DNA from: Planobacterium oryzisoli
GTDB taxonomy: Bacteria; Bacteroidota; Bacteroidia; Flavobacteriales; Weeksellaceae
Assembly (NCBI RefSeq): GCF_015354315.1
Contig: NZ_JADKYY010000002.1
Location: 62,001 to 126,000, forward strand
Reading direction: 5' to 3'
Length of the DNA stretch: 64,000 bases
Shown: one piece after another, positions 9,336-38,391 of the stretch
How the letters are laid out: every line of letters begins with the position of its first letter
Position numbering within the stretch: the first letter of the stretch is position 1
Position numbers and translations under genes: made by a program
The notes under the pieces: generated by a model
The model's database searches: none
Told to the model about the DNA's origin: nothing
The model's input: the letters and a program-made list of their open reading frames with translations, nothing else

Positions 9336-9366
9336 TTGCCTGCGCGCTAATATAAGTGTATCTTCG
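9336..9366 (+). promoter_or_regulatory. Promoter of the cobalamin-riboswitch transcript
   Basis: TTG at 9336-9338, 20 nt spacer, and TATCTTCG at 9359-9366, one mismatch from TAnnTTTG. The expected start point (about 9371) coincides with the first bases of the riboswitch P1 stem, which supports both calls. Confidence 0.55.
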
Positions 9367-9370
9367 CAAC

Positions 9371-9511
9371 GCTTTCAGAAAAGGGAATGGTGTGCAATTC
9401 ACCAACTGTCCCCGCAACTGTAAATCACTTTAAAGATTCCAGTAAATACGCCATTTTCCCGTTGGGAAGAGAAGGTGCTGGAATGTGAAAGTCAGGAGAC
9501 CTTGCTGAAAG
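9371..9511 (+). ncRNA. Cobalamin (B12) riboswitch
   Basis: Adenosylcobalamin/cobalamin-sensing leader RNA of the TonB receptor gene that follows. The core is unmistakable: GGGAATGGTG, CAATTCACC, then ACTGTCCCCGCAACTGTAA (9383-9423), and later GAAAGTCAGGAGACCTTG (9487-9504). The closing P1 helix is visible as CTTTCAG at 9372-9378 pairing with CTGAAAG at 9505-9511. In bacteria, cobalamin binding to this aptamer normally switches off the downstream transport gene. The start codon is 110 nt beyond P1, so control is more likely by transcription attenuation than by direct masking of a ribosome site. Confidence 0.93.
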
Positions 9512-9566
9512 TATTCTTTTATTAATGCTTTCGGAGGAAAAGCCTGACTTACAGAACAACCGTTCT
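9491..9566 (+). promoter_or_regulatory. Putative riboswitch expression platform with competing helices
   Basis: The 3' strand of P1 (CTGAAAG, 9505-9511) can instead pair with CTTTCGG at 9528-9534. GTCAGG of the aptamer core (9491-9496) can pair with CCTGAC at 9543-9548, enclosing the first hairpin. A short AGAAC/GTTCT stem (9553-9557 with 9562-9566) followed by TATTTTA lies just after. This arrangement fits a switch between aptamer and non-aptamer folds, but no strong terminator is seen, so the mechanism is inferred. Confidence 0.45.
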
Positions 9567-35325: not shown

Positions 35326-37011
35326 TTATTCAGGTTTATATCCGTCCTTGAGGGTCACCGTTCTATTAAAAACCAAGTGAGAGTCTGTTGAATCCTGATC
35401 CTTAGTAAAGTATCCTATCCTTTGGAACTGTATAGGTTCGCCAGTTTTGGTTAGTGCAATGGCAGGCTCTCCATAACCATTTAATACTTTCAAAGAGTCG
35501 GGATTAATATAGGAGAGGAAGTCCGCATCCTTTTCAGCGTCTGGCTGAGGTACTGTAAATAACCTGTCGTATTCCCTGATTTCCACAGGATGGGCGTGTT
35601 TGGCAGAGACCCAATGGAGTGTCCCTTTGACTTTTTTTAAACTTTCTGGTGTACCCGACCCGGATTTACTAAGGGGCTCATAGGTACAAAAAACAGTTGT
35701 TACATTTCCTTCATTGTCCTTTTCTACGCTTTCAGCCTTAATTATGTACGCGGATTTGAGTCGTACTTCTCCACCTAGCTTAAGGCGGAAGAATTTATTG
35801 TTTGCCTCTTCCTTGAAGTCTTCCTTTTCAATATAAAGTTCTTTGGAAAATGGCATAGAGCGTTCGCCGGCATCAGCATCTTCCGGGTTGTTTTCAGTGT
35901 CTACATATTCGGTTGCATCTTCGGGGTAATTAGTGATGACAAGTTTTAAAGGATCAGTAACACACATTAAACGAGTTGCCTTTTTATTGAGGTCTTCCCG
36001 AACGAAAAACTCAAGTAGCTGAATATCAATTAGATTTTCCCGTTTTGCCACACCAACCCGATCAATGAAGTTGCGAATGGATTCTGGGGTATATCCTTTG
36101 CGGCGTAAACCCGAAACGGTAGGCATGCGCGGGTCATCCCATCCGTTTACCACTTTCTCTTCTACAAGTCTTTGTAATTTGCGTTTTGAGGTGATCATAA
36201 AAGATACGTTCATACGTGCAAACTCTCTTTGCTTATTACGAACGCTTGGGGGAGTGTATACCTGATCTAAATACCAGTCGTAAAGAGGACGGTGGTTTTC
36301 AAATTCCAATGAGCACAGCGAATGGGAAATTTGTTCTATATAGTCACTTTGTCCGTGTGCCCAGTCGTACATTGGATATATTTTCCATTTTTCACCCGTC
36401 CTGTGGTGCGGTCTTTTAAGAATACGGTACATGACCGGATCTCTCATGTTCATATTAGGAGAGTTCATGTCTATTTTTGCACGTAGCGACATGCTGCCCT
36501 CCTGGAATTCACCATTTTTCATTTTCTCAAAAAGGGAAAGTGATTCCTCTACTGGACGATTTCTGTACGGACTCTCAACACCTGATTCAGTAGGGGTTTT
36601 TCTCTGCTCGGTAATCTCTTGTGAGGACTGCTCATCTACGTATGCTTTACCGCGCTTTATCAGTTCTACAGCCCAATTATAAAGGGTTTGAAAATAATCA
36701 GAGGCATATAGCTCCTTATCCCATTTAAAGCCCAGCCATTCCACGTCTCTTTTTATAGAGTCTACAAACTCCTGCTCTTCTTTTTCTGGGTTGGTGTCAT
36801 CAAACCGTAAGTTTACAGGGGCACTGTATTTTTCACCCAGGCCGAAATTGATGCAGATTGCTTTGGTATGCCCTATATGTAGATAACCGTTTGGTTCTGG
36901 TGGGAACCGAAAACGAAGATGCGCTTTTGGAAGTCCACCTGCTAAATCCTCTTCTATGATTTGTTCTATAAAATTAAGGTGTTTACGTTCCTCCTCTTTA
37001 TGTTCGTTCAT
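35326..37011 (-). CDS. glnS: Glutamine-tRNA ligase
   Basis: Class I aminoacyl-tRNA synthetase charging tRNA-Gln. It has 561 residues from ATG 37011. The HIGH signature is PPEPNGYLHIGHTKAI (about 37-52) and the KMSKS-equivalent is MITSKRKLQ near residue 265. The C-terminal two-barrel anticodon domain continues to the end and includes PFSKELYIEKEDF. The frame is open 6 codons further to 37029 without conservation. A -7-like TAAATTTG (37034-37027, minus strand) lies 15 nt before the ATG. A strong terminator follows the stop. Confidence 0.95.
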   Translation of the reverse strand: MNEHKEEERKHLNFIEQIIEEDLAGGLPKAHLRFRFPPEPNGYLHIGHTKAICINFGLGEKYSAPVNLRFDDTNPEKEEQEFVDSIKRDVEWLGFKWDKELYASDYFQTLYNWAVELIKRGKAYVDEQSSQEITEQRKTPTESGVESPYRNRPVEESLSLFEKMKNGEFQEGSMSLRAKIDMNSPNMNMRDPVMYRILKRPHHRTGEKWKIYPMYDWAHGQSDYIEQISHSLCSLEFENHRPLYDWYLDQVYTPPSVRNKQREFARMNVSFMITSKRKLQRLVEEKVVNGWDDPRMPTVSGLRRKGYTPESIRNFIDRVGVAKRENLIDIQLLEFFVREDLNKKATRLMCVTDPLKLVITNYPEDATEYVDTENNPEDADAGERSMPFSKELYIEKEDFKEEANNKFFRLKLGGEVRLKSAYIIKAESVEKDNEGNVTTVFCTYEPLSKSGSGTPESLKKVKGTLHWVSAKHAHPVEIREYDRLFTVPQPDAEKDADFLSYINPDSLKVLNGYGEPAIALTKTGEPIQFQRIGYFTKDQDSTDSHLVFNRTVTLKDGYKPE

Positions 37012-37208
37012 AATAGTTGTAAAATGCAAATTTAGTTAAATTAACTCATAGAAGCTTTAATTTACAATGCAGCGATTGTGTCTAAAATATTATAAATTAT
37101 ACTTCTTAATTATATAACACATATTGTTTTTTGTATTAATAAATTGTTAATCAAATCACATTAATATTAAAAATATAAATCTTTAATAAAATTTTAATGT
37201 AAAGATTA

Positions 37209-37239
37209 TTGTTTATTAACACACTCTGTTGTATATTTG
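37209..37239 (+). promoter_or_regulatory. Strong Bacteroidota-type promoter in an AT-rich stretch
   Basis: TTG at 37209-37211, 20 nt spacer and TATATTTG at 37232-37239, a full match to the consensus. The 170 bp upstream are almost pure A/T, as in UP-element-like regions. It drives the short unit at 37274-37411. Confidence 0.7.
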
Positions 37240-37273
37240 TGCAACAGTAAGTATCACTAAATCCTTGAATTCT

Positions 37274-37351
37274 ATGAAAACATTGAAAGTATGGTTCGCC
37301 CAATGGAAAGAAAGGCTGAAAAAATCAATTTTTGTTGAGGACGTTATTTAA
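37274..37351 (+). CDS. 25-codon gene for a basic amphipathic peptide (possible small RNA)
   Basis: A short frame, ATG to TAA, encoding MKTLKVWFAQWKERLKKS followed by IFVEDVI. I know no family for it. Hydrophobic residues 4, 8, 11, 15 and 19 fall on one face of a helix, with lysines and arginine opposite, so an amphipathic membrane-active or membrane-binding helix is plausible. The unit is complete: consensus promoter 35 nt upstream, and a perfect terminator hairpin that begins 20 nt after the stop. The transcript would be about 165 nt, so it may also act as a small RNA. It lies between glnS (divergent) and menC (convergent). Coding status is not proven. Confidence 0.45.
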   Translation: MKTLKVWFAQWKERLKKSIFVEDVI

Positions 37352-37371
37352 CAGCCTCGTGGTTAGCATTT

Positions 37372-37411
37372 AAAGAAAAAGATCTGAAGAAACTTTCAGA
37401 TCTTTTTCTTT
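37372..37411. terminator. Bidirectional intrinsic terminator (25-codon gene and menC)
   Basis: A 17-bp perfect stem, AAAGAAAAAGATCTGAA (37372-37388) with its complement at 37395-37411, and a 6-nt loop. A- and T-tracts inside the arms give a T-run in both directions. It terminates the small rightward unit and overlaps the menC stop codon on the other strand. Confidence 0.88.
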
Positions 37412-38391
37412 AAAATATCTTGTTTCAATGTTAAGGATGACGGGAAATTATTGCTAAAAACTCCACCTGTGCCCAGTCCCTGCGGCATTTTTGGCGCTTT
37501 TGTATACGTGTACTGCGCAATGGCATTTAGCCCTATGTTACTTTCCAGCGCGGATGTTATCCACCAACCAACTTTATTTTTTTCCGCTAGATCAATCCAT
37601 GAATCACAGCCACTGAAACCGCCCATAAGTGAAGGCTTGAGTATAATGTACTGTGGAACTATGTCCAAAATTTCTTTTTTTCTTGAATGATTACCGATCA
37701 ATTCTTCATCAAGAGCGATAGGTACTGGGGTATTTCTGCACAGATTATATAGTAGGCTCGATTGTCCTGGCTTGATGGGCTGTTCAATGGAATGGATGTC
37801 TAAGGAAGATAATTCGTCTAGAACTTGTTCCACATTGTTTTTGTTAAATGCACCATTGGCATCTACCCGAATTTCCAACTGACTCGCTGGATAGCGCACT
37901 CGAAGCATAGCAATCACCTGCTTCTCGGTCTGCCAGTCCACACCAATCTTTAGTTTTATACAAGAGAACCCATTTTGAAGCTTTTCTTCAATTTGCCGCT
38001 CCATGTAGGTTCTATTTCCCATCCACACCAGTCCGTTGATTTGAATTCCGTCCTGGCCTCTTGAAAAAGCACTGGGAAAATACTCATCGCTTCCCCAATT
38101 CAAGTTTGCCATAGCCTGTTCGTAACCAATCCAAAGCGATGGATAGTTCTCAAGGTACTGGTATATCTGCTCTGGGTCTAAAGCAATGTTAGTAGCTAGC
38201 CAGTGGAGTTTTTCTTCATAATCGGGTACATCGTCACAGCTCAATCCCTCAAATAGAGCACATTCGCCCACTCCTTTCCTTTCATCTTCCTCCACGGTCA
38301 ATATGTAGGTGTTCTTGGAGGTGAGGATCCCTCTAGAAGTACCTCCCGGAGTGATGAAATTTAAAGTATACTTTTTATAAGTTGCCCGCAT
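37396..38391 (-). CDS. menC: o-Succinylbenzoate synthase (enolase superfamily)
   Basis: Dehydrates SHCHC to o-succinylbenzoate in menaquinone synthesis. It has 331 residues. The muconate-lactonizing-type barrel shows the general acid/base lysine in CIKLKIG (about 143-149), metal ligands in the strands VDANGAF, EQP and DEEL, and the second lysine in ILKPSLMGG. SGGxxG-like substrate loops are replaced by SALESNIGLNAIAQ. Dipeptide epimerases have a similar outline, but the short C-terminus with GLGTGGVF fits MenC. It starts 8 nt after the fbp stop, in the same operon. Its stop lies within a terminator. Confidence 0.87.
   Translation of the reverse strand: MRATYKKYTLNFITPGGTSRGILTSKNTYILTVEEDERKGVGECALFEGLSCDDVPDYEEKLHWLATNIALDPEQIYQYLENYPSLWIGYEQAMANLNWGSDEYFPSAFSRGQDGIQINGLVWMGNRTYMERQIEEKLQNGFSCIKLKIGVDWQTEKQVIAMLRVRYPASQLEIRVDANGAFNKNNVEQVLDELSSLDIHSIEQPIKPGQSSLLYNLCRNTPVPIALDEELIGNHSRKKEILDIVPQYIILKPSLMGGFSGCDSWIDLAEKNKVGWWITSALESNIGLNAIAQYTYTKAPKMPQGLGTGGVFSNNFPSSLTLKQDILKKKI

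Follow-up and report, generated by a model that had tools for sequence, protein, structure and literature searches.

The locus in the window

The window, as we call the whole 64-kb stretch of Planobacterium oryzisoli DNA that was analyzed, contains a monocistronic, standalone unit between glnS and menC, in which a 25-codon frame lies between promoter-like and terminator-like signals (Table 1). An earlier note on this DNA had proposed the promoter, TTG-N20-TATATTTG, as well as the frame and the terminator hairpin, and all three are present between these two genes; a correction concerns the hairpin, whose right arm runs into the last menC codons. The promoter is composed of TTG at 37209-37211, a 20-nt spacer, and TATATTTG at 37232-37239, and transcription is predicted to start at about 37244. 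The ATG of the peptide gene is at 37274 and its stop codon at 37349-37351. The hairpin comprises at least 20 pairs with a loop of 4-6 nt, and T-run hairpins occur at the same place in some relatives, namely in the sister species (G001) and in the genus group g26, which appears to correspond to Kaistella. Because the right arm overlaps the end of menC, the terminator is probably common to both convergent transcripts and stops each of them.

Table 1. Features of the glnS-menC region (window coordinates)
Feature	Position	Strand	Basis or remark
Predicted sigma-A type promoter, TTG-N20-TATATTTG	37209..37239	+	Sequence; sole strict match in window
25-codon microprotein gene, MKTLKVWFAQWKERLKKSIFVEDVI*	37274..37351	+	Homologues, dN/dS, synteny
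Intrinsic terminator hairpin, probably bidirectional	37369..37414	+	Right arm within menC 3' end
menC, convergent conserved neighbor	37396..38391	-	tblastn of window protein
glnS, divergent conserved neighbor	35326..37011	-	ORF; likely start ATG near 37011

Elsewhere, the window carries the sequence for the DNA-binding domain of RpoN (sigma-54) at 2145-2618 and a Cobalamin riboswitch (Rfam RF00174, 71 bits) at 9348-9522, both on the forward strand.

Conservation of the frame and its position

A protein search of relatives returned full-length matches, from which a profile was built and run on 321 genomes of the same family, which is most probably Weeksellaceae. Full-length, stop-free matches covering residues 1-25 were found in the sister species, in about 165 of the 173 genomes of group g21 (an approximate count at E <= 1e-3), and in a subset of g26. 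Group g21 is the Chryseobacterium genus group and takes in Chryseobacterium takakiae and Chryseobacterium sp. Leaf405, as indicated by sequence identity to the loci L028 and L058. When the search was extended to 396 genomes of the order, no convincing homolog of the peptide was detected outside the family, and in a search at the DNA level the sister species gave the only convincing match. Weak protein matches, such as those at L027, L029, L032, and L037 and at L245 in the genome of P. oryzisoli itself, were discarded, since they lacked the tail motif or contained internal stops.

The frame is a conserved one, and purifying selection acts on its amino acid sequence. In 30 independent pairs, 97.5 synonymous differences over 410 sites and 98.5 nonsynonymous differences over 1750 sites gave a dN/dS of 0.20, and differences at codon positions 1, 2, and 3 numbered 48, 36, and 112, respectively. 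Ungapped identity was 0.91 within the frame versus 0.64 over the preceding 40 nt and 0.50 over the following 60 nt. The strong matches were devoid of internal stops, and 65 distinct peptides were obtained. We regard it as highly probable that the frame in the window is a translated gene. The idea in the earlier note of a short gene that gene finders miss receives strong support from conservation, dN/dS, and synteny.

As to synteny, menC adjoins the peptide gene in convergent orientation on the 3' side in 69 of the 77 loci examined (tblastn with the MenC protein of the window), and glnS lies upstream in many loci, chiefly where the available sequence extends far enough. Several further genera of the family have glnS next to menC, separated by about 60-270 nt, and the peptide frame was not detected there. 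The arrangement of the two genes thus seems older than the peptide gene, which suggests that the latter arose in, or was inserted into, the glnS-menC gap. Paralogs away from this locus adjoin fumC in two genomes of g26 and occupy other places in some genomes of g21 and g26 and in one of g13. In the two genomes with fumC as neighbor (L030 and L127), the paralog is divergent from fumC, and a small frame resembling a membrane protein and a prfA-like gene follow it. In genus g13, a 29-residue relative (L239), MKAFAKIVRAKYYAWLTQMKENIFVNGVI, is situated on the 3' side of glnS instead of upstream and equipped with its own terminator. In some Chryseobacterium genomes (L065 and L133), an alpha/beta-hydrolase-like gene intervenes between glnS and the peptide gene, at about 115 nt upstream of the latter.

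Anatomy of the peptide

The majority residues by column among the 65 distinct peptides read MKKIKKKFSYILEYIKKAIFVKDVI. K2, K16, I19, and F20 are nearly invariant across homologs: F occupies position 20 in every one of the 65 peptides and I position 19 in 64, and each peptide has K or R at positions 16 and 17 and I or V at position 25. All aligned homologs from glnS-menC loci end at this V/I25. The conserved core consists of a basic amphipathic N-terminal part and a C-terminal tail, I-F-V-x-D-V-I/V. For residues 2-21, the hydrophobic moment has a family mean of 0.49 versus 0.26 for shuffled sequences and peaks at 100 degrees, and the mean net charge is +4.9. The peptide of the window, with a net charge of +3, has a moment of 0.30 versus 0.26 (p = 0.36), and its V6 and W7 sit on a face that is otherwise basic in the family. 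Amphipathicity, which the earlier note had read from this one peptide, is therefore a property of the family but not clearly of the window's copy. From its family-wide occurrence, a membrane-acting peptide is plausible.

No credible match to the peptide was found in Pfam, NCBIfam, PADLOC, or PDB sequences, PHROGs gave isolated weak matches only, and limited searching of the literature found no work on this peptide family. Judged by these comparisons, the peptide represents a new, uncharacterized small-protein family, of a known kind, the bacterial small proteins.

Promoters in the window and in relatives

TTG-N19-21-TATATTTG occurs once in the 64-kb window, at the promoter of the peptide gene, and not at all in ten shuffles. 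The relaxed form, TTG-N17-23-TAnnTTTG, occurs 7 and 3 times on the two strands versus 5.4 per strand in shuffles, which is approximately chance. The box TAnnTTTG is the flavobacterial -7 element (PMC9723704) and falls at -12 to -5 in the window promoter. Of the "consensus promoter" described earlier, the uniqueness of the strict string stands, but the relaxed consensus is at chance level and the promoter is not of the class usual among the homologs.

In most relatives, the promoter of the peptide gene is predicted to be of the sigma-54 class. A -24/-12 element, TGGYAY-N5-TTG[CT], with the GG-N10-GC core, precedes most homologs, mostly 44-65 nt before the ATG. Among 73 distinct upstream regions, 54 contained a strict and 61 a relaxed site, whereas dinucleotide shuffles gave values of 0.005 and 0.13, respectively. 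The site of the sister species reads TGGCATAAAATTGGT, and the paralogs away from the locus have the same -24/-12 promoter class. Upstream of the window's copy this element is absent, with zero GG dinucleotides in 37030-37273, and the putative sigma-A box takes the place of the sigma-54 site. A sigma-A consensus was also found in a Chryseobacterium clade (L069, L070, L155, L163, and L167), in which the sigma-54 site is absent in all members except L069. Taken together, the pattern in the window and in this clade reads as promoter replacement. Many Chryseobacterium copies are preceded by a GAAAATATTTTC palindrome, which was considered as an activator site and rejected, as it is the 3' end of an upstream hydrolase-like gene.

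The genome of P. oryzisoli contains twelve perfect matches to the -24/-12 pattern, nearly all of them within genes, so that the bare pattern is uninformative there. In the groES promoters of this genome (L189) and of relatives (L188 and L190-L196), -24/-12-like sites resembling TTGGCATACAATTAGA were observed, often with A instead of C at the last position. Upstream elements of the CTGCCAAA type are present in most of these groES promoters, and these CTGCCAAAATTTCACA-like elements are likely to serve as the activator site in a heat-shock response under sigma-54. The CTGCCAAA element is absent at the peptide gene, which thus need not belong to the heat-shock branch.

The sigma-54 regulon of Flavobacterium psychrophilum includes chaperones, Lon, ClpB, and envelope and gliding genes (PMC9723704). 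The peptide gene resembles this (SM4) regulon in its -24/-12 promoter class, and the genome of P. oryzisoli encodes two sigma-54 activators, one NtrC-like and one between miaB and an lptE-like gene (names read from translations). With rpoN in the window, these two activators, and the groES site, the cell still possesses sigma-54. It differs in that the window's copy has a predicted sigma-A promoter and in that no homolog of the peptide was detected outside the family searched. As the window promoter is not of the sigma-54 type, stress control is not transferable to the species of the window.

Proposed role and alternatives

We propose a microprotein gene, under sigma-54 control in most relatives, whose product adjusts the activity of a partner by means of a membrane helix and a docking tail; for this explanation as a whole, we consider the chances to be evenly balanced. 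In most relatives, sigma-54 and one enhancer-binding activator would switch the gene on under stress, and in the window's species it would be expressed from the sigma-A promoter. Lacking a signal sequence, the peptide would stay in the cell, where the basic amphipathic helix of residues 2-20 might rest on the inner face of the cytoplasmic membrane. The C-terminal tail, I-F-V-x-D-V-I-COOH, may then dock on a partner, for which a membrane protein or a quality-control protease is the likeliest candidate, and the docked peptide would adjust the partner's activity. This membrane-and-tail mechanism falls somewhat short of an even chance in our estimation. The combination of a basic helix and a fixed tail with the sigma-54 link makes a regulator of the envelope or of protein quality control the most economical guess. 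SpoVM of Bacillus subtilis, a membrane-surface microprotein of 26 amino acids, is similar in length, in its basic amphipathic helix, and in being encoded by a standalone gene. A sequence relation to SpoVM is not apparent, the sporulation context is missing, and the present family is distinguished by its conserved C-terminal tail and by the sigma-54 promoter predicted in most relatives.

The main rival is a soluble regulatory microprotein that binds one protein by its helix and tail without membrane contact, for which a protease ligand or an inhibitor such as Sda or MciZ could serve as a model; this is possible, albeit rather unlikely. The conserved residues F8, I15, K16-K17, I19-F20, and V24-I25 could face a protein partner just as well as a membrane, and quality-control proteases belong to the sigma-54 regulon in a relative (PMC9723704). 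However, the hydrophobicity period peaking at 100 degrees and the lysine-rich face are typical of membrane-surface helices, although this is not decisive.

A membrane-damaging peptide, either the toxin of a type I toxin-antitoxin system or a secreted antimicrobial, appears improbable. Its 25 residues, high positive charge, and amphipathicity across the family recall the phenol-soluble modulins and delta-lysin of Staphylococcus, amphipathic peptides of 20-26 residues. Yet the present peptides come from another phylum and are strongly basic, and their gene is chromosomal and conserved, with fixed synteny and no export-system neighbor. Toxin-antitoxin loci are patchy, whereas this gene is retained at one chromosomal locus in nearly all species of the genus, which makes a lytic or toxic role less likely; moreover, an exactly placed, partly acidic tail would be unexpected in a lytic peptide, and PADLOC gave no match.

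That the product is a small regulatory RNA of about 170 nt, with the frame incidental or secondary, we hold to be very improbable. The compact promoter-terminator unit would agree with it, as would the strong terminator fold, to which the folding z of -3.0 of the predicted 177-nt RNA is owed, and F. psychrophilum possesses a sigma-54-driven putative regulatory RNA, Rfp36 (PMC9723704). Against it, RNAalifold found 0 consensus pairs in the 5' UTR and frame of 13 diverse homologs, Rfam gave no match at the peptide locus, and conservation drops at the frame edges. The excess of third-position changes, the dN/dS, and the poorly conserved flanks indicate that selection keeps the peptide and not an RNA, and the regulatory RNA of roughly 165 nt considered in the earlier note is thus unsupported. 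A leader peptide regulating a downstream gene by attenuation, as a short frame followed by a terminator might suggest, is refuted for this locus and retains next to no probability, because the next gene, menC, lies on the other strand both at this locus and in syntenic loci, leaving no downstream target.

Returning to the microprotein with a membrane helix and a docking tail, we tentatively extend the proposal, in a form that we think doubtful as yet: a lineage-specific family, born between glnS and menC in one group of Weeksellaceae, may act through its conserved C-terminal docking tail as a sigma-54-controlled stress effector in Bacteroidota, with a handover between sigma-54 and sigma-A on at least two occasions.

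With this locus, an environmentally widespread genus group gains a strongly conserved gene family that the protein-family libraries searched do not contain. It may offer a small and tractable entry to the flavobacterial sigma-54 stress network, of which little is known, and the apparent change of promoter class at a fixed locus would be a clean case of a small gene changing its regulon.
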